From positions 455,736 to 519,735 of the forward strand of contig NZ_KN882175.1 in the NCBI RefSeq assembly GCF_000934755.1: a DNA stretch of 64,000 bases. Direction: 5' to 3'. Shown one piece after another: positions 50,739-62,922 of this stretch (its first letter is position 1; each line of letters starts with the position of its first letter). Below the pieces are notes generated by a model. The model searched no databases. It saw only the letters and a list, made by a program, of their open reading frames with translations, and was not told the DNA's origin. A program made the position numbers and the translations under genes. Source of the DNA: Desulfonatronovibrio magnus (lineage in GTDB: Bacteria > Desulfobacterota > Desulfovibrionia > Desulfovibrionales > Desulfonatronovibrionaceae).

Positions 50739-51269
50739 TTACGCGCTATGAAGGTTGCCTTTCTGACTTGCTATTGCTTGCTCTATTGACCTGACCACTT
50801 CCTGGGGTTCAAGATCATCACCGCGTTCAACAAGAGCAAGAGTCAGATTGATCTCTCGCTGAATATGAGGGGTCTTGATATTAAAGTATTTTCTCCAGGC
50901 TGCTGCAGCTGCCTGAATATCTCCGTCTATGGCGTGGCTGAGTCCAGTATAAAGCACCGCGTAATCATCACCGGGTTTAATAGTTAAAAGCCTCTCCCAT
51001 ACCTTTCTGGCCTCATGACTATCTCCCAGGCGCAACCTGCAAAAACCCAGTTTTCGCAGGGCCTCCTGATGCAAGGGCTCCTTTAAAAGACATGCTTCAT
51101 AGCTCTGTGCTGCAAGCTCATAATCCTTTTCCCTCAATAATCTATCCGCCTGGACAATATCCGGATCAAAGCCCGATGATTCCTCCTCCATATCCTGGCC
51201 GCGAACATGACGCATAAAACCGCGAAACAAATCTCTGCGTGAAAACTTATTTAACTTTTTAGCTTGCAT
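50739..51269 (-). CDS. TPR-repeat protein of the chemosensory cluster
   Basis: This 176-residue protein has about three tetratricopeptide repeats (DRLLREKDYELAAQSYEACLLKEP; ALRKLGFCRLRLGDSHEARKVWERLLTIKP; AVLYTGLSHAIDGDIQAAAAAWRKYF). Its ATG begins one base after the cheA stop codon, so translation is coupled. It may be a scaffold for the CheA complex. An SRRDLFRG near the N-terminus is not a Tat signal because no hydrophobic core follows. Confidence 0.85.
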   Translation of the reverse strand: MQAKKLNKFSRRDLFRGFMRHVRGQDMEEESSGFDPDIVQADRLLREKDYELAAQSYEACLLKEPLHQEALRKLGFCRLRLGDSHEARKVWERLLTIKPGDDYAVLYTGLSHAIDGDIQAAAAAWRKYFNIKTPHIQREINLTLALVERGDDLEPQEVVRSIEQAIASQKGNLHSA

Positions 51270-54149
51270 TTAAAATCTGCTGGTTGCCATTTTATATATT
51301 TCATGGGGATCAAGAATAAGGACTACACTTCCATCTCCCATGATGGTGGCTCCGGAAATACCAGGCTGCTCTCCCATATACTCCCCAAGCGACTTAATGA
51401 CGACTTCCTGCCTTTCCAGTAAAGTATCAACCACAAGACCAAGTCTGCGATCCCCCACAACAATAATAACTACGGGCAAAACTTCCCTGTCTTCATTATT
51501 GACCGGCAATTCAAGAAGTTCGCTTAATTCAGCCAGACCAAGGACTTCACCACGCAAAGTAACTGCTTTACGATTGTTTATTTCACTGAGTTTTGCCGCT
51601 TCAATCTTGGTGGTTTCCGAAACAGCATCTAAAGGGATGGCATAGGTCTGTCCAGCCATCTTAACCATGAGCGCATCAATAATGGCCAGAGTCAAAGGCA
51701 GGGTTATGGAGAATTTTGAGCCCTTGCCCAGAGTGGAGTGAACCAGCACGCTTCCTTTGAGGTTTTTTATATTATTTTTAACCACGTCCATGCCAACGCC
51801 ACGCCCGGAAATGTCAGTCACCTTCTCTGCAGTGGAAAACCCAGGAGCAAAGATAAGATCAATGGCTTCCTGATCTTCCATGGACTGGGCCTTTTCCTGT
51901 GTTATTATTCCCTTTTCCAAGGCCTTTGACTTCATTTTTTCCGGATCTATACCCCTGCCATCATCCTCCACTTCAATCACTACTGAATTGCCACGATGCG
52001 CTGCACGAAGCCACACAGTGCCTAAAGGGTCTTTGCCGGCCTTGACGCGCATATCTTCCTGCTCAAGTCCATGATCAAGAGAATTGCGGATCAGGTGCAC
52101 CAGAGGATCGCCAATAAGTTCTACAACGCTTTTATCAAGCTCTGTATCCTCACCTTCAGTAATAAGCTGCACTTTTTTGTTGCTTTTGCGGCTGAGATCG
52201 CGCACCAGTCGGGGAAACTTGGTAAATACAGTCTGCACCGGTACCATGCGCACGTTCATTATGGTTACCTGGAGGTCGTCAGATATCCTGGCCATGGAAT
52301 TGGTGGTTTCTGTAAGCTGCTGGGCTATCTCCTGCACATCATGGCCTTCTTCAAGAGACTTGGACAGCATGGCAAAGCGATTACGATTGATAATAAGCTC
52401 ACCAATGAGGTTCATGAGATCATCTAACCGTGAATGATCCACTCTAATGGTAGAGGCAATGGTAGGCTTGGTTCTGTCCTTTTTGGAAGGAGGCTGATTA
52501 GACTTGGAGGCAGGCGCGCTCTTGTCCGGCTCCTTTGGGCAGGCCTGGTTATCCTGGGTTTCTGCTTGAGAAGGCCCTGTTTGAACTCCGACATCAGAAT
52601 CTTTTTCAGGCTCGGTCTGCTTTGATTCAACCTCCCGGGACGCATTCTCAGGTTCAGTATCGACTGAACCCGGACCATTGGAAGCCTGGTCTGATTCAGC
52701 TGTTGTTTCTGAATCATGTTCGGGTTCAAGACCTGGATCGGGTTTAGAATCAGAAGAACTTGCAATGCTTGTCAGCTTATTATCCACCATGGACTGCAGG
52801 ATACTTGTTTCCTGCTTGAGAAGGTCACCCATCAGCTCAAAATCCAGATCAGATTTGCGGCCCTGATCTACTAATTCAGCAGTCCTGGCTGCATAAGTCT
52901 TTAAATCATCAAAACCCATGTAACCCGTGGAATTCTGGATGGTCACCAGAGATCTGTACAGACCATCGATAATTTCCTTGTCAGCCTCACCAGAATTTAT
53001 TTTTTCCAGCGCCAGCTTCAGGTTTTCAAATTGCTGCGCCACTGCCTGTTCAAAAATCTGGAGATCCTCTGGATCAAAGTTTTCCTGATCGCTTGCAACA
53101 GACTCAGATCCGTTGTCTTTATGGTCTGCCTGGCTTTGAGTGTTTGACTTTTCAGACTCAGCAGGCGAGTCATCCTGTTTTTGAGACTGGACTTCCGGCT
53201 TATCAGGTACAGAATTCACCTCTTTTTTAAACTTAGGCTGATTTTGAAGAGCCTTGTCAACTTTTTCCAGAACATCTGATATATCATACCCGGTGACTTC
53301 AGAGCTTTCCCTGTCAACATTATTCAAAACTGTTTCCAAAGTATCGGAAATAGTCAAAAGAACATCAATAAGTTCGTGAGATATTTCCAGTTCATTATTC
53401 CTGACTTTATTCAGGATGGATTCAGCCTCATGAGAAAGCCTGTTTATTTCCTTAAACCCGATAATGGCACTGTTGCCCTTTATGTTGTGAAAGCTGCGAA
53501 ACAGATCATTGATAACTTCCCTGTCAAAATCTTCGTTACTCTCCAAAGTGATAAGCATGGAGGTGACTTCTGCCAGAATCTCCTGAACCTCTTCAATAAA
53601 ATCATTGAGATGATCCTGGCTGACCATGGTCAAGGCATAACTTTCTTCGGTTTTAAACAGTCCCGCATCCCCGGCCTCAGCCTTAGATGTCTGGTCTGAC
53701 TGCTGCTCAGCCTCATCTGAAGATGGCTTTTCTGATGCAGGTGAATCCACACCACCGGATTGCATCAGTTCTTCAATATGCTTGATTATATGTGCAGTAT
53801 CAACCTCACCTTCATTACCCTGGGCTTCAAGATTTTCCACCATTTCCCTGAGAGCATCTGTAGCTTCCAGTATAAGATCCATGATGCCGGAGGTAACTTT
53901 CATCCGACCTCTCCTGAGCTCATCTAAAATATTTTCGCCCTTATGAGCCAGAGAGTTCATAAGCTTGAGCCCAAGAAAACCTGAAGCACCTTTCAAAGAG
54001 TGCATGGGCCTGAAAATATCATCCAACAGGGAAAGATCGTCCGGATTCTTTTCAAGCTCAAGCAGCTTGGGCTCAATGGTCTCCAGATGTTCTCGTGCTT
54101 CTACCACAAAGTCAGCGTATACTTCAGGATCGTAAAAGTCTTGATTCAT
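51270..54149 (-). CDS. cheA: Chemotaxis-type histidine kinase CheA with three Hpt units
   Basis: This 959-residue kinase has Hpt1 with His50 (PMHSLKGASGFLG), Hpt2 with His221 (SFHNIKGNSAIIG) and a third Hpt-like unit in which the His position is Val402 (SLVTIQNSTGYMG) and so cannot be phosphorylated. An acidic Ser/Glu/Pro linker (about 460-565) follows, then the dimerisation domain, HATPase (LVHLIRNSLDHG, GRGIDPE, GRGVGMDVV) and a CheW-like regulatory domain (about 825-955). It is longer than classical CheA (about 650) and recalls ChpA/FrzE-type kinases of surface-motility or alternative chemosensory systems. Confidence 0.94.
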   Translation of the reverse strand: MNQDFYDPEVYADFVVEAREHLETIEPKLLELEKNPDDLSLLDDIFRPMHSLKGASGFLGLKLMNSLAHKGENILDELRRGRMKVTSGIMDLILEATDALREMVENLEAQGNEGEVDTAHIIKHIEELMQSGGVDSPASEKPSSDEAEQQSDQTSKAEAGDAGLFKTEESYALTMVSQDHLNDFIEEVQEILAEVTSMLITLESNEDFDREVINDLFRSFHNIKGNSAIIGFKEINRLSHEAESILNKVRNNELEISHELIDVLLTISDTLETVLNNVDRESSEVTGYDISDVLEKVDKALQNQPKFKKEVNSVPDKPEVQSQKQDDSPAESEKSNTQSQADHKDNGSESVASDQENFDPEDLQIFEQAVAQQFENLKLALEKINSGEADKEIIDGLYRSLVTIQNSTGYMGFDDLKTYAARTAELVDQGRKSDLDFELMGDLLKQETSILQSMVDNKLTSIASSSDSKPDPGLEPEHDSETTAESDQASNGPGSVDTEPENASREVESKQTEPEKDSDVGVQTGPSQAETQDNQACPKEPDKSAPASKSNQPPSKKDRTKPTIASTIRVDHSRLDDLMNLIGELIINRNRFAMLSKSLEEGHDVQEIAQQLTETTNSMARISDDLQVTIMNVRMVPVQTVFTKFPRLVRDLSRKSNKKVQLITEGEDTELDKSVVELIGDPLVHLIRNSLDHGLEQEDMRVKAGKDPLGTVWLRAAHRGNSVVIEVEDDGRGIDPEKMKSKALEKGIITQEKAQSMEDQEAIDLIFAPGFSTAEKVTDISGRGVGMDVVKNNIKNLKGSVLVHSTLGKGSKFSITLPLTLAIIDALMVKMAGQTYAIPLDAVSETTKIEAAKLSEINNRKAVTLRGEVLGLAELSELLELPVNNEDREVLPVVIIVVGDRRLGLVVDTLLERQEVVIKSLGEYMGEQPGISGATIMGDGSVVLILDPHEIYKMATSRF

Positions 54150-54470
54150 ATATCTGCCTGATGATTGTTAATAAACTAATATCATTTCAAGGAAAACATG
54201 GGACAGGCACTCCGGGAGCCACTTGAACATCAACCAGTGATTTAAATGGGTCATTTTGAAGGCAAGTGGGTCCCGGAAGAGCCAGTCCCCCTCCGGGCTG
54301 TATGCCTCCGGGCAGGAAGCCATGCTGCATGCAAAGGGCTGTTGCAAAATAATATTATATCCCCCGGGATAAGTGAAAGATCGAAAAACAAACTCAATGA
54401 TTACTGAAATGCACATGCAGGTATTATATGAGTTCTATGCTACCTGCCTGGAAACTTCTGGCCCAGAGCG
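54150..54470. other. Gap between cheY and cheA holding repeat A4
   Basis: No gene. About half of it is the family-A copy A4 (54185-54345). The rest contains no motif I can name. Confidence 0.55.
54185..54345. repeat. Family-A palindromic repeat, copy A4 (with extra segment)
   Basis: The core gggacaggcactccgg and gagccagtccccc is present with arms ccgggagccacttg and caagtgggtcccgg. A 30-base extra segment containing cctccgggc twice lies after the right end, as in A5 and A6. The outermost terminal repeats are poor. It separates cheY from cheA. Confidence 0.75.
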
Positions 54471-54839
54471 TCAGCCCAGTAACATTTTGACATTTTTAAC
54501 CAGCTTGTCCGGCTGGGCTGGTTTGACCATATATAAATTGGCTCCCAGCCCGAGACCCTGCTGAATATCGCTGTCCCTGCCCTCTGTAGACAGGATTACT
54601 ACCGGGGTATCCCTGAACATCTCTTGTTCACGAAGATTTTTGATAAAGGTAAAGCCATCCATTCTCGGCATATTAACGTCTGAAATAATCAGATCTATAC
54701 CTGATATGGAGTATAGTTTCTCTAAGGCATCCAATCCATCCTCGGCTGTAGTCACCTGAAATCCCTCTTTTTTTATAATAAAGGCTATCAGGTTGCGCAC
54801 GGTTTTGGAATCATCAACCACTAAAATATGCTTAGACAT
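54471..54839 (-). CDS. cheY: CheY-like single-domain response regulator
   Basis: This 122-residue receiver has the acidic pair in ILVVDDSKTVRN, acceptor Asp in LIISDVNMPRMDG, Thr/Ser in VVILSTEG and Lys in MVKPAQPDKLV. It should be the direct phospho-target of the neighbouring CheA. A strong ggagg site precedes the ATG. Repeat elements lie on both sides of it (A4 and A5). Confidence 0.93.
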   Translation of the reverse strand: MSKHILVVDDSKTVRNLIAFIIKKEGFQVTTAEDGLDALEKLYSISGIDLIISDVNMPRMDGFTFIKNLREQEMFRDTPVVILSTEGRDSDIQQGLGLGANLYMVKPAQPDKLVKNVKMLLG

Positions 54840-54912
54840 GACCCCTCCGAAAAAAAGGTCTCAAGTGACGTTGCAGTTTAGCTCTATGTGTATGACGCAC
54901 GGTTTTTTATTC

Positions 54913-55082
54913 GTAATAATTCAGCCATTTTTAAGTAAGCAGGGGACAGGCACCCCAGTCCTTTTTTTTTGTTGATGTAAAACACAGACTTAATAAAACA
55001 AGGGCTGGGAGAGCCAGTCCCCCTCCGGGCTGTATGCCTCCGGGCAGGAAGCCGTGCCACATGCAAATGGCTAAACTGTTAC
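54913..55082. repeat. Family-A palindromic repeat, copy A5 (with extra segment)
   Basis: This 170-bp copy ends in gtaataattcagcc and ggctaaactgttac. The inner right arm aaaacaagggctgg is identical to that of A2, but the left arm is degraded to ccagtccttttt. It carries the 30-base cctccgggc segment. It lies between cheW and cheY. Confidence 0.8.
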
Positions 55083-55103
55083 CTCATATATTTTTAAGCG
55101 TCT

Positions 55104-55835
55104 CTATTCATTCAAGAGACGTCCGACTATAGCGTCAATGGACAGAATAGAAATAATCTTTTCTCGATTTTTTATCAATGCGGCCACATAGCTTGAATTC
55201 ATGGCCAGGGCAGACTCAACACTCCATTCTATGTCTTCTCTCGGCATACGATACATGGTGGCTATTCTTTCCACAAGCAGACCAACCTGAAAGTTATCCT
55301 TTCTACAGACCACAATAAATCTGTTCTCAACATCTTTGCCTTTACCGGGATTAAGAAGCTCTGCCAGCCGGACTATGGGGGTAACCTTTTGTCTGAGATT
55401 GATGACACCTTCAAGATAAACTGGAGCTGCAGGCAACTTGGTGGGCTGGATAAATTTAATAACTTCATTGACCGTTTCTATAGGAAGAGCATACTCTTGT
55501 CTGCCCATGAAAAAACTGACCAGTTGAACATCATCCATGGCCTTGAGACGCTCTTTATCTCCCAGGGCAGGCGCCTGATCCTTGCTGGTATGTTTTACCT
55601 GATCGTTTCTAACCTGGACCTCTGGTTCAGACTGTTTCTGATCCTGATCTGCTGAATGTAGTACAATAGTGTGCCCGGATTCGGTCTCATCAGCAAGTGC
55701 GGATTTTATACCCGCAGTATCACCGTTGAGATATTTATCGATAAACAGCTGTTCTGAATCAGATAATTTTGTGCCTTTATCAGCATGGTCAGCATCAAAA
55801 TTCTGTTCAACAAAGTATTCTTCAGGAGTTTTCAT
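55104..55835 (-). CDS. cheW: CheW-domain coupling protein
   Basis: This 243-residue protein has an N-terminal variable region (about 1-95) and a C-terminal CheW domain (VSFFMGRQEYALPIETVNEVIKF, YLEGVINLRQKVTPIVRLAELL, LLVERIATMYRMPREDIEW). It should couple receptors to CheA. It starts in a 4-base overlap with parA. The N-terminal extension is absent from minimal CheW and may bind another partner. Confidence 0.92.
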   Translation of the reverse strand: MKTPEEYFVEQNFDADHADKGTKLSDSEQLFIDKYLNGDTAGIKSALADETESGHTIVLHSADQDQKQSEPEVQVRNDQVKHTSKDQAPALGDKERLKAMDDVQLVSFFMGRQEYALPIETVNEVIKFIQPTKLPAAPVYLEGVINLRQKVTPIVRLAELLNPGKGKDVENRFIVVCRKDNFQVGLLVERIATMYRMPREDIEWSVESALAMNSSYVAALIKNREKIISILSIDAIVGRLLNE

Positions 55836-56617
55836 AATTTTTTTATGCCTCTATCAATCTCTCTCGCCAGCCTTGTGTATTCCTGAGCGCCTCTCGATTT
55901 GGGGGCATAGTCATGAATAACCCTCCCCCTGGCACTGGATTCCCTGAACTTGGTATCTGTATTGATTACTGTTTCAAAAAGCCTTGGCCCCATTTTTTTG
56001 CGCAGAATATTGAGTATCCTGCGACATGCTCCTGCTCTGCGGTCAAACATTGTTGGCAGCACTCTATACTTTATCGGACTTTTCAGAGCTTTGTTTAACA
56101 ATCGCATAGTGTCAAAAATCAATTTAAAACCGTGTAGAGCCAGAAAGTCAGTCTGAGTTGGTATTATTACCTCATCAGCAGCTACGAGGGCGTTGACCAG
56201 AATTACTCCCATTTGCGGAGGGCAGTCAATAATGATAACTTCATAGCCTCTTCTGGTCTGCGCCAGCCATTTTTTCAGGATCAGCCCTTTTCCTGGAACA
56301 TCTTTCAGATCTGCATCCAGCTCTGAAAGCTGAATACTGCTTGGTGTGAAGTCGAATCTGGGTTCAGAGTGAGTAGGATATATGGGACTGTTTTGCTGAT
56401 CTGGAAAATTGGGATAACTCTTAAAGATATCTAATGCAGTCCGCTGTGTTTTTTCAGGAAAAAAGGCCATATGAATTGACGCACATGCATGCGGATCCAG
56501 GTCCATGACCAGAATTTTCCTGCCCATTCGAGCAAAAGATCCACCAAGGCTCAATGCCGTGGTGGTTTTACCCACACCGCCCTTTTGATTGGCTACAGCT
56601 ATTACATAAGCGGACAA
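55832..56617 (-). CDS. ParA-family ATPase of the chemosensory cluster
   Basis: This 261-residue deviant Walker-A ATPase has KGGVGKTTTALSLG near residue 12, Walker A' DLDPHA, and VIIIDCPPQMG. ParA/ParC-type ATPases in chemotaxis clusters position chemosensory arrays, which fits the cheW overlap here. Translation begins at TTG 56617, supported by a strong gggagg site 5 bases upstream. It is not next to a parB, so chromosome partitioning is unlikely. Confidence 0.92.
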   Translation of the reverse strand: MSAYVIAVANQKGGVGKTTTALSLGGSFARMGRKILVMDLDPHACASIHMAFFPEKTQRTALDIFKSYPNFPDQQNSPIYPTHSEPRFDFTPSSIQLSELDADLKDVPGKGLILKKWLAQTRRGYEVIIIDCPPQMGVILVNALVAADEVIIPTQTDFLALHGFKLIFDTMRLLNKALKSPIKYRVLPTMFDRRAGACRRILNILRKKMGPRLFETVINTDTKFRESSARGRVIHDYAPKSRGAQEYTRLAREIDRGIKKL

Positions 56618-56706
56618 ATCCGCCTCCCTTTGGGAATAATGAGTTCGAGTATCTGCTTAGCGCATTTTTAACCTTAAACCTCCAGCCCTCAGAACACCCT
56701 TCTCTG

Positions 56707-57102
56707 TTACCGATAGTTTAAAATCATTTTTCTAAGGGCCTGCCAGTCATCCTCGTATAGATCTACAAAACGCAGCCCGACTTCATAGCTGGTAAGAGGA
56801 ATTCTTTCCTTTACCCAGGCCACTTCTGCCACAGCCTGCAGATATTGCCCGAGATCACTTTCAAAAACCTTAAAAAAGCCAGGATGATACTTGTTAAAGC
56901 TGGCTATGAAAACCCTGACCTGGACCTGCTGATTTTCCTGAAAACGCCGATTGCATATAACTCTCAATCCGCCAACACTGATATCAGCAGATTCAACTTC
57001 AGTCTTTTTCTGCCCTTTCAGAGGAAAAATAAAGTCCTGGACCTCCACCCTGAATTTCTTAGGTATTCTGGCATATTCCCGTCTGTCATTATCCTTGTTA
57101 AT
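56707..57102 (-). CDS. PilZ-domain (c-di-GMP-binding) protein, probable ATT start
   Basis: The longest ordinary frame starts at GTG 57048 (113 residues) and lacks the first PilZ motif. The same frame is open upstream and reads RREYARIPKKFRV, giving the RxxxR motif (Arg8, Arg12), before meeting the cheR stop. The only plausible start there is ATT at 57102-57100, exactly 7 bases after aaggaggg inside the cheR end. From it the protein is 131 residues with DxSxxG at Asp40-Ser42-Gly45. This would bind c-di-GMP and link the cluster with the HD-GYP enzymes. Confidence 0.82.
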   Translation of the reverse strand: MNKDNDRREYARIPKKFRVEVQDFIFPLKGQKKTEVESADISVGGLRVICNRRFQENQQVQVRVFIASFNKYHPGFFKVFESDLGQYLQAVAEVAWVKERIPLTSYEVGLRFVDLYEDDWQALRKMILNYR

Positions 57103-57105
57103 AAC

Positions 57106-57987
57106 CTAACCCTCCTTCAGATAAACAAGAGCTCCTGGATGATGAATCGGTCTGAAAGCTCTGGAAATATTGTGCAGTGATTCAGAATGCCCGATAAATA
57201 GATAGCCTCCCGGAAGCAAATTATCGTAAAAAGAATTTATAACATTTTTCTTCATTTCATCATCAAAATAAATGACTACATTCCGACAGAAAACAATATC
57301 TGATCTGGGTACTTTCTTGAGCTGGAAGCGATCACTCAGGTTAATCTGACCAAAATCCACCAGCTGCTTGACACTGTCCTGCACAACAAATCTGCCCGGC
57401 TTTTCTTCATTGAAATATTTCCTGACAATCTCAGGCGGTGTTGTCCGCAGGGCATATTGGGAGTAAATCCCTCTTCTTGCTGCAGCAAGCACTGATTGTG
57501 AAAGATCATTGGCGGTAATGCGAATCCGCCACAAAGGAAGCTCCGATCCCAGAAGCTCATGCAAAACTATGGACATGGTATAGGGCTCCTCTCCGGTGGA
57601 GCAGCCAGCGGACCAGATATGCATGTACTTCTGGGCCTTGCTTCTTTTGGTCTGTATCAGCTCCTTGAGAATTATATCCTGAAAGACCTTGATCTGTGGA
57701 GGATTGCGAAAAAAGCTGGTTTCATTAGTGGTAATCACCTCAAAAAGTTTATTGAGTTCAATCTTGCGGTTAACATCATAACGAAGAAAGTAGAAATATT
57801 CCCCGAAACTCTTGAGATTGTGCTCTTTAAGCCTGTTGGCAAGTCTGTTTTCCAGAAGATACTTGCGATTATCACCAATATAAATTCCACTTTGTTTGTA
57901 AATAAAATCACGCAGCTGCAAAAACTCATCATCCTGAATCTTGAAATCTTTTTTCAGAGTTATGCTTTTGGAAAATGAAGCACTCAT
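57106..57987 (-). CDS. cheR: Chemoreceptor methyltransferase CheR
   Basis: This 293-residue SAM-dependent enzyme methylates receptor glutamates. The N-terminal helical domain is followed by ITTNETSFFRNP, the SAM motif IWSAGCSTGEEPYTM, NDLSQSVLAAARRGIY and FCRNVVIYFD. The last codons carry the ribosome-binding site of the following PilZ gene. It is 8 bases downstream of the HEAT gene. Confidence 0.95.
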   Translation of the reverse strand: MSASFSKSITLKKDFKIQDDEFLQLRDFIYKQSGIYIGDNRKYLLENRLANRLKEHNLKSFGEYFYFLRYDVNRKIELNKLFEVITTNETSFFRNPPQIKVFQDIILKELIQTKRSKAQKYMHIWSAGCSTGEEPYTMSIVLHELLGSELPLWRIRITANDLSQSVLAAARRGIYSQYALRTTPPEIVRKYFNEEKPGRFVVQDSVKQLVDFGQINLSDRFQLKKVPRSDIVFCRNVVIYFDDEMKKNVINSFYDNLLPGGYLFIGHSESLHNISRAFRPIHHPGALVYLKEG

Positions 57988-57995
57988 CTATTATT

Positions 57996-59924
57996 TTACT
58001 CCATACCCTGTTCCTGCAAAATATCAAGTGCGCGCTCTGCAGCATCCTGAATCTCGGTATCAGGATCGTCAAGAATATCTAACAGCGCCCTGAAACATAC
58101 CTGTCCGCCTATGGTGCCCAAGGCTTCGATTATTTTAATTTTCTGCAACTTGGAACTGTTGTCCCATAGAGATATAATCTCTGAAGTGACCCTGCTGGAT
58201 TTTTTGTCGCCAAGGGCTTCAATAGCCCTGATCCTGACCCATTCATCTTGATCCTCGAGAGACTCGAGAAGGTAGGCCACTGTTTCCTCGTGTGGACATT
58301 TGCCCAGCAATTCCACAAGAGCAAGGCGAACTTCCCTGTTTTCATCATTTATGACCTTAATGGCTGCGGGAATGATTTCCTTATCATCCGGGCACACCGT
58401 AGCCATGGCATCCAAAGCCATTTTTCGGACATCCGGGGAATCATCTGTCAAAGCCTTTTTCAAAATATCAAGGTTTTTCCCTGCGCCGAGTCTGCCTACA
58501 GCATAAACCGCCATCAGCCTTTTCATGGGGTCAGCGCTGGTTATCATGGGACGAAACTGTGCAGCCACAGCCTCTCCGCCGATGGTCAGCACTGAATCCA
58601 GCGCCGTCTCCTTGACATCATTCCAGGGATGATCCAGGAAAGACATAAGTTCGCTGATGCATTCATCATCTTTAAGCTTATAACCGATAAATTTCAGGCT
58701 GTTTTTCAATACGTCGCCGTCTTCATGAGTGCGCAGGATATGCAGAAAAAAATCTCTGGCCTCTGAACCGCCGGTATTGTAAATTTCCCGAGTAATGGCT
58801 CTTTGCAGATCACGGCTTTGCACCTCAAAAGCATGGGTAAGTCTGTTAATGGCATCCTTTCCTCCTATCCTGCCCAGAGCCCGCACCGCTACAAATGCCT
58901 TGGATTCATCTTCCGCTGTCAACCCATCGGCCAGGGCCTGGGAGTAACCAATGGAAACCAGCGCATTTTCTGCTCTTTCCAACCTCTCAGAATCCCTGTC
59001 TGAATCAAGTTCTGCCGCAATAGTAATAATTTTGGCTGAAGCCTTTTCACCCCCCACATAACCAAGGCCGGCCATGGCTACATCCTGAGTTTCAGGATCA
59101 TTATCCTCAAGAGCAACCAAAAGATAGTCATTGAGTTTATCTCTTTCTTTTTCACTTAAAAAAGCCAGTGCCTTACCGCCAAGAACCTTTATGATGGACT
59201 TGACAATCTTGTTGCGTAAAGCTGTCGGTGAGGTTTCGGTTTTTTTCAGGAGCATGGGTACGGCTTTAACATTGCCCAGTTCTCCCAGAGCATCCACAAT
59301 CATGGAAGTAACCAGTTCTGAACTGTCAGCAAGAGCTTTGATCAGAGCCTGAATTGAAGATTCATCTCTGAGTTTGGCGAGCGCTTCCACCACAGCGTAT
59401 TGAACCCACTCTTCATCCTTAAAGGCCTTGTTCAGGCATGAGGATGCTTCAGACCTGCCCAACTCTCCCAGACTGACTGCAGCCTGGTACCTGACATTGA
59501 CGTTTTTATCTTGCAGCAAAGCGTTGCATAAAGGACTGACAGCAAGGTATGATCCTGACGATCCAAGAATATCCGAGGCGAAAATACGCATATCCTCATC
59601 TTCATCATTAAGCAGCTCAATTAGTGAGTCCAGATCCTGGTGACCAATATGGCGAAGAATATCCATTGCCAGATTTCGAACCTGGGGCAAATCACTTCTA
59701 AGCAGCGGGATCAATGCCTGCACGCATTCTTCTCTGCCAATCTTGCGCAAAGCCATGTCGGCAGCTTCCTGGACCCCGAGACTCTCACTTTTCAAAAGCT
59801 CGACAAGTTGCGGAGCAGCATCGATCAAGCCTTTATCCCGAGCCGCAAAAGCTCCTTCTCTTTGTTTTTCCGGATCACCACTTTTTAGAAATACCATGAT
59901 CTCAGAAATGCTCATCTCGTCCAT
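57996..59924 (-). CDS. HEAT-repeat protein of the chemosensory cluster
   Basis: This 642-residue protein consists almost wholly of about 18-20 HEAT repeats of about 31 residues (for example VQALIPLLRSDLPQVRNLAMDILRHIG and AVAAQFRPMITSADPMKRLMAVYAVGRLG). No enzyme motif, signal peptide or membrane helix is seen. HEAT proteins are binding scaffolds; the place between cheB and cheR suggests one for the chemosensory complex. The acidic start MDEMSISEIMVFLKSGDPEK is typical of cluster homologues. Confidence 0.9.
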   Translation of the reverse strand: MDEMSISEIMVFLKSGDPEKQREGAFAARDKGLIDAAPQLVELLKSESLGVQEAADMALRKIGREECVQALIPLLRSDLPQVRNLAMDILRHIGHQDLDSLIELLNDEDEDMRIFASDILGSSGSYLAVSPLCNALLQDKNVNVRYQAAVSLGELGRSEASSCLNKAFKDEEWVQYAVVEALAKLRDESSIQALIKALADSSELVTSMIVDALGELGNVKAVPMLLKKTETSPTALRNKIVKSIIKVLGGKALAFLSEKERDKLNDYLLVALEDNDPETQDVAMAGLGYVGGEKASAKIITIAAELDSDRDSERLERAENALVSIGYSQALADGLTAEDESKAFVAVRALGRIGGKDAINRLTHAFEVQSRDLQRAITREIYNTGGSEARDFFLHILRTHEDGDVLKNSLKFIGYKLKDDECISELMSFLDHPWNDVKETALDSVLTIGGEAVAAQFRPMITSADPMKRLMAVYAVGRLGAGKNLDILKKALTDDSPDVRKMALDAMATVCPDDKEIIPAAIKVINDENREVRLALVELLGKCPHEETVAYLLESLEDQDEWVRIRAIEALGDKKSSRVTSEIISLWDNSSKLQKIKIIEALGTIGGQVCFRALLDILDDPDTEIQDAAERALDILQEQGME

Positions 59925-59961
59925 ACTATCTCACCTTGATTTGATATATCGCAGGTATTTT

Positions 59962-60157
59962 CAACATTCAGCCATCCCCCAGCCTCCAGCATTCAGCCTC
60001 AAACCTTCCGTCTTCATCCATAAGCCTTCCGTCTTCAACCTTCAGTCTTCAAACTTCCGTCTTCACCCTTCCGTCTTCCGTCTTCCGTCTTCAACCTTCA
60101 ACCTTCAGCCTTCCGTCTTAAGCCTTCAGCCTTCAACCTTCAACCTTCAGCCTTCCT
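59962..60157. repeat. About 26-unit 7-bp tandem array between cheB and the HEAT gene
   Basis: On the minus (coding) strand the units read TGAAGGT, TGAAGGC, TGAAGAC and GGAAGAC in unbroken 7-base register from the cheB stop for about 195 bases, degrading towards the HEAT gene. On that strand it is purine-rich with an AAGG in most units. It fills nearly the whole gap. Confidence 0.85.
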
Positions 60158-60159
60158 AT

Positions 60160-61239
60160 TCACCTGTCTGTTTCAACATAAAGACTCGAATTTATGGCAT
60201 TTGCCATTGCCTCAAGTTCAACAACCTGATCTGCCAGACCATCATCCACAACTGCCTTGGGCATGCCGTATACAACGCATGTATCTTCGCTCTGGGCCAG
60301 AACCAGCCCTCCCTTGAGCTTGAGGTCTCTTGCGCCCAGCAGTCCATCATTGCCCATACCTGTGAGTATGACACCCACCGCGCGCTTTCCTACACCCTGG
60401 GCAGCAGAAGTGAAAAGAACATTGGCTGATGGCTTGTAAAGGGCATCCACCGGTTCAAGACCAACACCCACTTCAATGCGGTAAACTTTCTGGATGATCT
60501 TTAAATGCTGACCACCCGGGGCTATATATACCCATCCCGGCTTTAGAACATCTCCTGATTCCGCCTCTTTGACATTAAGTCCGGTTGAATCATTGAGACG
60601 TCTGGCAAAAGGGCCTGTAAAAGCAGCAGGCATGTGCTGGGCAATAAGAATAGAAGCCGGAAAACTGGCTGGTAATTCAGCAAGGATTTTTTGCACAGCA
60701 GGCGGTCCACCTGTGGATACACCAATAACAACTACATCACGGACAACTTTTCCTGAAACAGAGTCCGGTATTTCCCTGACTACTCTGGGCACTCTTTTGG
60801 GGCGCTGTATAGCCGCAAGTCTGACAGTTCTGGCTTTTTTCCGGGCCACGGCCTTAACCTTGGCCTGCAAATCATTTTCAATTTTGACAATATCCAGACT
60901 GACCTTGGAAAGTTGCTTGGAAATAAAGTCCACAGCCCCGTATTCCATGGCTTTAAGAGTCGCTTCAGCACCATCCGTGGTCAATGAGCTGACCATGATC
61001 ACCGGCCTTGGCATCTCCATCATGATATGCTTAAGGGCAGTCAGCCCGTCCATGACAGGCATCTCAATGTCCATGGTCACAACATCAGGATCAAGCTTGC
61101 GCACCAGTTCAAGCCCTTCCTGACCATTGCGGGCCATACCCACTACATCAATTTCAGGATCTTTTTTAAGCATAGTGCTGATGGCTTTGCGCATAAACGC
61201 TGAATCATCAACAACTACGACTTTAATGACTTTATTCAT
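60160..61239 (-). CDS. cheB: Chemotaxis protein-glutamate methylesterase CheB
   Basis: This 359-residue protein has a receiver (Asp57 in VTMDIEMPVMDG) joined by a basic linker (about 125-165) to the methylesterase domain with catalytic Ser175 (GVSTGGPP), His202 (AQHMPAAFT) and Asp298 (TGMGNDG). It should demethylate receptors when phosphorylated by CheA. No good ribosome site is seen before ATG 61239. The stop codon directly abuts the heptamer array. Confidence 0.95.
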   Translation of the reverse strand: MNKVIKVVVVDDSAFMRKAISTMLKKDPEIDVVGMARNGQEGLELVRKLDPDVVTMDIEMPVMDGLTALKHIMMEMPRPVIMVSSLTTDGAEATLKAMEYGAVDFISKQLSKVSLDIVKIENDLQAKVKAVARKKARTVRLAAIQRPKRVPRVVREIPDSVSGKVVRDVVVIGVSTGGPPAVQKILAELPASFPASILIAQHMPAAFTGPFARRLNDSTGLNVKEAESGDVLKPGWVYIAPGGQHLKIIQKVYRIEVGVGLEPVDALYKPSANVLFTSAAQGVGKRAVGVILTGMGNDGLLGARDLKLKGGLVLAQSEDTCVVYGMPKAVVDDGLADQVVELEAMANAINSSLYVETDR

Positions 61240-61254
61240 ATTATTTTGACTTTA

Positions 61255-61330
61255 AATGGATCCTGCATCCTGCAGCCTATTTAAATACAGGCGACTGGAA
61301 GCCGCCTCCACTTTGAAGAACAGTTCCATA
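61255..61330. repeat. Degenerate palindromic repeat
   Basis: The stretch contains tggatcctgcatcctgcagcc and ggcgactggaagccgcc, similar to 49640-49710. Probably a decayed REP-type unit; no other feature is seen between cheB and the HD-GYP gene. Confidence 0.35.
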
Positions 61331-61416
61331 TTTGGAAATAGAGACATCCCCCGCGAGGTACACTAATTATCTGTAACTTACCTGTAAGCTCCTACCAGCT
61401 AAAAGCCAGGAACCGC

Positions 61417-62922
61417 TCATCTTTGACTCGTTCTTAGCGGCATTGTCTGCATATCCTTCTGAATATTCTCAAAACCATCGCGGTTAAGTAAATCCACCCA
61501 GCTGTCAACCAAATCACTTTCCCATTGGCTTCCTTTTCCACTTAACAGGATATCTCTGGCTTTTTCCCATGGCAGGGCCTTGCGGTATGCACGGTCCGAA
61601 GTCATGGCCTCAAAGGCATCCACTACACTGATTATCTTGGCCAAGCCTGGAATCTGACCATTGGAGATGCCTTCAGGATAACCCTTGCCGTCCACGCGTT
61701 CATGATGATGAAACACCACCGGCAAAGTCTCTTTCAGAGACCAGACTTGAGAAAGTATGTCCCTTGCAATGACAGGATGGGACTTCATTACCTCAAATTC
61801 TTCGTCACTGAGTTTGTCCGGCTTGTTAAGGATATGATCAGGAATGCCGATTTTGCCAATATCATGCAACACACCTGCAGTATAAAGGGCATCAAGTTCT
61901 TTGGAGTCAAGTTTGAGATAACTGCCAAGTTTGACAGCATAGACTGCAACCCTCTCAGAATGGCCCTTGGTATAATAATCCTTGGCTTCAACCGCCTTGG
62001 CATAAGAACGGATTATATCAATGTTCTGATCTCGCATGCGGGTGTACATCTTGGCATTTTGAATGGCAGTTGCCACATGAGCAGCAAAAACACTAAGCAA
62101 CTGCAGGTCATCATTGGAAAAGAGGCTGCTGTCTTTTCTCAGGAGGACCACGGCACCAACCCGGTTCTGCTGAGAAAAAAGAGGAACCACCATCAGGGAG
62201 TAAGGAAATTCCTGGTCTGCGAACATGGGTAGCTGACGGGCAGTATACTTATCAAGCAAGTATGACTTGGATTCATTCAATGATTCCTGAGCCAGCCTCT
62301 GAACCCTGGCAAAAAATTCAGGATCTTCACGAAAAAGCCTGCCTCTGATCACTGATTTGGTCAAATTGCTTTTACCATCAGCTCTGGTGAACAGAACAGC
62401 ACTGTCCGGAGAAAAATTACGCTGAACCTGCAAAACAAACTCATAACATATGGATTTGAGATCAAGCTGGGCATTAAGAGCATTGCTCAGATTGAGCATA
62501 CGCACTATGTTGCTTAACCTGTTGCGCTCCAGCTTGGCGGTTCTGTCCCTGATCACCTTGCTGACCTTGACCAGAAGGTGATTTATATTAAATGGTTTGG
62601 GCAGATAGTCTGCTGCCCCCTTTTTCATGCACTCTACAGCAGTTTCAATGGTGGCGAAACCGGTCATGATCAAAAAATCAATATCAAGCTGCTTTTCCTT
62701 GATTTTCTCCAGCAGCTCCAAGCCATTCATCACCGGCATCCGAAGGTCTGAGATGATAACATCAACATCTTTATTGGCTGAAACAACCTCTAAGGCCTGC
62801 TGCCCGTCTCCAGCCTGCAATACATTATAACCTTCATCCTTCAGTGCGTCTCTGCAGATTTCCCGCAGGCTTTCCTCATCGTCCACCACGAGAATTTTTA
62901 CTGTTTCATTGCTGATATCCAT
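61417..62922 (-). CDS. Response regulator with GAF-like and HD-GYP domains
   Basis: This 501-residue protein has a receiver (Asp59 in VIISDLRMPVMNG, Lys in LPKPF), a central GAF-like segment (about 145-290, SLMVVPLFSQQNRVGAVVLLRK) and a C-terminal HD-GYP domain with His353-Asp354 (LHDIGKIGIPD) and GYP at 414-416 (DGKGYPEG). It should degrade c-di-GMP. It is 177 bases upstream of cheB on the same strand and so may be the first gene of the cluster; the PilZ gene in the same cluster is a plausible c-di-GMP effector. Confidence 0.93.
   Translation of the reverse strand: MDISNETVKILVVDDEESLREICRDALKDEGYNVLQAGDGQQALEVVSANKDVDVIISDLRMPVMNGLELLEKIKEKQLDIDFLIMTGFATIETAVECMKKGAADYLPKPFNINHLLVKVSKVIRDRTAKLERNRLSNIVRMLNLSNALNAQLDLKSICYEFVLQVQRNFSPDSAVLFTRADGKSNLTKSVIRGRLFREDPEFFARVQRLAQESLNESKSYLLDKYTARQLPMFADQEFPYSLMVVPLFSQQNRVGAVVLLRKDSSLFSNDDLQLLSVFAAHVATAIQNAKMYTRMRDQNIDIIRSYAKAVEAKDYYTKGHSERVAVYAVKLGSYLKLDSKELDALYTAGVLHDIGKIGIPDHILNKPDKLSDEEFEVMKSHPVIARDILSQVWSLKETLPVVFHHHERVDGKGYPEGISNGQIPGLAKIISVVDAFEAMTSDRAYRKALPWEKARDILLSGKGSQWESDLVDSWVDLLNRDGFENIQKDMQTMPLRTSQR

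Follow-up and report, generated by a model that had tools for sequence, protein, structure and literature searches.

Translation of a PilZ-domain gene behind cheR in Desulfonatronovibrio magnus very likely starts at an ATT codon

The locus studied here raises a simple question: where does translation of the PilZ-domain gene (pilZ) that follows cheR begin? In the window, that is, the whole analyzed stretch of 64,000 nucleotides, the pilZ frame on the minus strand continues after the cheR TAG as GTT ATT AAC AAG GAT AAT GAC AGA CGG GAA TAT GCC AGA ATA CCT AAG AAA TTC AGG GTG, the last codon beginning at 57048. The first-pass annotation had claimed that no canonical start precedes the RxxxR half of the c-di-GMP site, and direct reading of the frame confirmed this: ATG, GTG and TTG are all absent between the in-frame stop (the cheR TAG) and RxxxR, and the first of them to appear is GTG 57048. 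It had further placed an ATT at 57102, 7 bases after AAGGAGGG, which agrees with the sequence. The features concerned are the following.

56707..57102, minus strand: PilZ-domain gene, from ATT (57102-57100) to TAA (56709-56707), 131 codons plus stop.
57100..57102, minus strand: proposed ATT start codon of pilZ; ATC in G001 and G054, ATG across most of the order.
57110..57117, minus strand: Shine-Dalgarno (SD) sequence AAGGAGGG (read 57117-57110), within the 3′ end of cheR, with a 7-nt spacer (57109-57103) to ATT.
57046..57048, minus strand: GTG, first canonical start codon in the pilZ frame; encodes Val19 and is rejected as the start.
57106..57987, minus strand: cheR (Pfam CheR, 6.3e-56), whose TAG (57108-57106) ends 3 nt before ATT.
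55832..56617, minus strand: ParA/MinD-type ATPase gene (Pfam AAA_31, 6.4e-43), downstream of pilZ in the same operon.

The encoded protein matches the PilZ profile PF07238 over positions 1-100 of 102 (E 2.3e-11, 44 bits, cut-off 22.5) and carries both c-di-GMP motifs, namely, RxxxR (residues 8-12, RREYAR) and DxSxxG (DISVGG, residues 40-45). Its AlphaFold2 model (pLDDT 77.6) matched PilZ structures in Foldseek. As judged from its sequence, the gene product is a stand-alone PilZ protein and a predicted c-di-GMP receptor. A gene caller would choose GTG 57048, the first canonical start, which is present in the congeneric genomes G001 and G054 as well; the upstream frame would then be untranslated, and the resulting 113-residue protein would still match the Pfam PilZ domain over profile positions 20-100. 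However, RxxxR is present only with a start upstream of this GTG, as the first-pass annotation had noted, and R8 and R12 do not vary among the 28 aligned sequences (27 orthologues were aligned). The GTG corresponds to residue 19, a valine inside the predicted strand beta1 (residues 17-23), so that a start there would also cut this strand, and the congener G066 has GTC at the same position. Given also its poor SD and the purifying selection on the codons ahead of it, both described below, we regard a start at GTG 57048 as very improbable.

Duplex energies against the 3′ end of 16S rRNA were computed for both candidate starts. The SD at ATT 57102 has an energy of -12.2 kcal/mol, a value reached by 0.13% of 1500 random sites and by 1.3% of 316 first-ATG sites of long ORFs, and it beats approximately 99% of the first-ATG sites sampled on the contig (median energies of -2.7 kcal/mol for random sites and -5.0 kcal/mol for first-ATG sites). 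In contrast, the value at GTG 57048 is at random level (-1.3 kcal/mol, reached by 74% of random sites). At the homologous ATC, the energies were -12.1 kcal/mol in G001 and -8.4 kcal/mol in G054, the SD of G054 being ordinary, unlike those of G001 and of the genome of the window (G000). When the three start regions were folded as single sequences, no common mRNA structure was evident.

An orthologue search across 150 genomes of the order yielded matches in 41, four of which belong to the same genus, including the window's own; no pilZ match was found in the congeners G046 and G060, the latter being 96% complete. As to whether orthologues carry ATG at the same place, most order-level relatives do have ATG at the codon homologous to ATT (e.g., L007-L010, L014, L016-L018, L020-L025), as do members of other genera of the family (G027, G017 and G007, at exactly this position), and four loci have GTG (L011, L015, L028 and L031). 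Within the genus, G001 and G054 have ATC at exactly this codon, with no canonical start ahead of RxxxR, and G066 has an ATG two codons upstream of the ATT position, overlapping the cheR stop (TAATG). An ATT or ATC start of pilZ was thus found in only three species (G000, G001 and G054), all of one genus. The first-pass annotation had named a sequencing error hiding an ATG as a finding that would refute the ATT start. A single base change would indeed restore a canonical start at ATT, but ATC occupies this codon in the separate assemblies of two congeners, neither of which offers a canonical start; this effectively excludes a sequencing or assembly error.

The codons preceding Arg7 are GTT ATT AAC AAG GAT AAT GAC in the window, CTT ATC AAA GAG GAT CAA GAC in G001 and CTT ATC AAA GAA GAC CAG GAA in G054, and ATT/ATC/ATC is the sole aligned position at which the codons of all three genomes differ from ATG by a single base. 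Over the 18 codons between this position and GTG 57048, no second-position change was observed among the three genomes and changes were mostly in the third position; between G001 and G054, codons 2-19 differ by 11 synonymous and 1 nonsynonymous codon differences. From this substitution pattern, we infer that the stretch from ATT to GTG is coding and under purifying selection. Readthrough of the cheR TAG or a frameshift could yield a CheR-PilZ fusion, wholly or partly, and CheR and PilZ do lie in one frame in the window with TAG alone between them. In G001 and G054, however, PilZ is in a different frame relative to cheR (TAG G CTT ATC), where a +1 slip at GGA or GGT has no re-pairing option, and PilZ in the relatives has its own ATG or GTG, at times 20-200 nt from cheR. 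We therefore give a fusion only a slight chance. The SD strength, the ATC conserved in two congeners, the ATG of distant orthologues, the purifying selection seen near the N terminus and the structural prediction together support the start proposed in the first-pass annotation, and translation of pilZ very likely begins at ATT 57102.

To our knowledge, only a handful of bacterial genes starting with AUU, AUC or AUA are known, and gene callers miss such starts by design. To assess how unusual pilZ is, approximately 0.8 Mb of this genome was compared with 0.74 Mb of G001. Among 97 non-shadow pairs, pilZ provided the sole convincing instance of conservation extending well ahead of the first canonical start in the two genomes, with 14 of 19 residues identical before that start; what remained were residual shadow ORFs and short extensions that matched poorly and ended at an ATG. 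Published reconstructions likewise found that 1 of 61,358 ancestral AUG starts became AUU (PMC5622118). The pilZ gene is a further case of a known, rare class of genes with non-AUG starts. It adds a signaling gene, with its start kept in three species, to the very short list of those starting with AUU, AUC or AUA, and it is a case in which the homologous ATG is visible in relatives. Automatic annotation in the genus probably gives a truncated PilZ protein without its c-di-GMP motif, hiding a predicted receptor in a chemosensory operon.

We then considered how such a codon might be read. IF3-autoregulated infC genes of other bacteria start with AUU, AUC or AUA. The infC gene of this genome (L044, G000:C5:8378-8872, minus strand) starts with AUA, as is the case in all 16 readable loci of the family (L035-L050; L051 was left out), behind GGGAGGA, a strong SD resembling that of pilZ. 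In nearly all loci, an in-frame stop, usually TGA, lies just before this AUA and is taken to be the end of thrS. Because infC starts with AUA, IF3-discriminated initiation very probably operates in this genome. When initiator tRNAs were sought by their signature of three G:C pairs, a single one came up, with anticodon CAU; an initiator with another anticodon was considered and rejected, since this tRNA (CAT in the DNA) was the only one matching that signature. Given the AUA start of infC and this anticodon, the simplest reading for pilZ would be formyl-methionine at AUU or AUC with discrimination by IF3, the latter as proposed in the first-pass annotation. The yield of pilZ is probably well below that of an AUG start, and regulation of the gene through changing IF3 levels seems unlikely.

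Known systems resemble pilZ to varying degrees. Like pilZ, infC combines an ATH start with a strong SD and a position just behind the stop of another gene, but it is autoregulated by its own product, whereas pilZ is a signaling gene without feedback on IF3. Control by IF3 is established for infC and for Streptomyces sigR, whose GTC start is repressed by IF3 (PMC5472188). In sigR too, a rare start that responds to IF3 holds one protein below its operon-mate (PMC5472188), although the codon is GTC rather than ATT or ATC and the genes form a sigma/anti-sigma pair. Staphylococcus aureus has conserved AUU and AUA starts with extended SD sequences, yielding approximately 10% of AUG (PMC13009471). 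Among these, cvfC1 (AUU) and ccpN (AUA) share with pilZ the conserved non-AUG start and the extended SD (PMC13009471), but have other functions, belong to another phylum and show no coupling to a proven upstream partner gene. In Escherichia coli pcnB, an AUU start limits translation (Binns and Masters 2002, as cited in PMC13009471); it has the start codon in common with pilZ, but the gene and its setting are unrelated, and a search for pcnB with NCBIfam gave no match above cut-off.

The distribution of the start within the genus bears on whether it was selected. In a tree of CheR plus PilZ proteins, G054 branches deepest, followed by G001 and then by G000 with G066 (supports of 78 and 91, which are modest), and the shortest account is one origin of the ATH start in the genus with one loss in G066. 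A real ATT start may have no regulatory role, being a slightly deleterious replacement offset by the strong SD and by coupling to cheR. Such an outcome would fit G066, which has a canonical start and has kept the gene order, and Belinky et al. treat start switches of this kind mainly as purged or compensated (PMC5622118); moreover, retention in three species is statistically not compelling. Since the ATH start occurs in three species of one genus and G066 has ATG, its retention may reflect drift rather than selection. Against this, one change would regain AUG from ATT or ATC, yet the ATH codon stays in three species while neighboring synonymous positions have largely turned over, a retention that is suggestive of selection, albeit in three species. 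We hold a start without regulatory role to be a serious possibility, somewhat short of even, and would say the same of a selected dosage role for the weak pilZ start.

If dosage matters, CheR is a candidate partner. The operon around pilZ encodes CheB, a HEAT-repeat-like protein, CheR, PilZ, the ParA-type ATPase, a CheW-domain protein, a CheY-like protein and a CheA-like protein, with Pfam support for CheR, ParA and CheW and the others named from their translations. These matches and translations, together with gene order in relatives, bear out the chemosensory setting assigned in the first-pass annotation. Upstream of pilZ and on the same strand, cheR was found in 30 of 31 distinct loci (32 entries, L005 and L033 being one contig; L032 lacks cheR), and a parA gene lies near pilZ on the same strand in nearly all of these orthologous loci. 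In a structural comparison, MapZ chains, alone and complexed with CheR1, were among the best matches of the PilZ model (5y4r_D, Z 13.3 over 99 residues at 2.4 A; 5xly_B, Z 12.4), although MotI/YpfA 5vx6 scored higher (Z 14.2) and similarity to the MapZ fold is common to many PilZ domains. MapZ did not appear in a profile search of solved structures, in which the best real match was YpfA 5vx6_A (E 0.0025).

MapZ (PA4608) of Pseudomonas aeruginosa inhibits CheR1 when c-di-GMP is present (PMC6370697). It shares with the protein studied here a single PilZ domain, RxxxR and D/NxSxxG motifs, a similar structure (Z 12-13) and a connection to CheR, but identity by structure is about 18%, and the CheR connection of our protein comes from gene order only. 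We know of neither adjacency to cheR1 nor a rare start for mapZ. That CheR is the partner of PilZ is nearly an even bet. Gene order and fold would be consistent with a role as a CheR adaptor in which the ratio to CheR is important and the weak start keeps the amount of PilZ small; because PilZ resembles MapZ, an inhibitor of CheR1, in these respects, it would likely be kept below CheR.

Taken together, these observations suggest the following mechanism. The ordinary initiator tRNA would decode AUU 57102, inserting formyl-methionine, and the protein would begin Met-Asn-Lys-Asp-Asn-Asp-Arg-Arg. The near-perfect SD in the 3′ end of cheR would enable initiation at the mismatched AUU, and ribosomes finishing cheR 3 nt upstream may assist it through translational coupling. 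By analogy with E. coli, Streptomyces and Staphylococcus, IF3 would destabilize initiation at AUU and hold PilZ at a small fraction of the AUG yield. PilZ would thereby be kept fewer than CheR, as might suit a MapZ-like adaptor inhibiting the methyltransferase when bound to c-di-GMP, and this dose of a c-di-GMP adaptor versus CheR offers a plausible reason for the weak start. As a whole, the account of an AUU-started PilZ c-di-GMP receptor, initiated with the help of SD and coupling, limited in yield by IF3 and kept below CheR, is in our view likely. It is doubtful that the AUU or AUC start and the coupling to cheR go further and let the IF3-to-ribosome ratio set how much of a MapZ-like c-di-GMP/CheR adaptor is made, alongside the AUA-started infC; if true, chemoreceptor methylation would be linked to the condition of the translation apparatus.

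Other features of the locus were also observed. The cheR-pilZ-parA block is kept through the order. The chemosensory cluster spans 50739-62922 on the minus strand; its CheA-like protein contains several Hpt-like segments, and its CheW-domain protein has a long extension at the N terminus. Elsewhere in the genome, L002 (G000:C8:47000-47130) has 73% identity to the 3′ part of cheR and is probably another cheR gene. Finally, the first possible start of the ParA-type ATPase gene (55832-56617, minus strand) is a TTG (MSAYVIAVANQKGGVGKT) with GGGAGG ahead of it and may be a further weak start in this operon.
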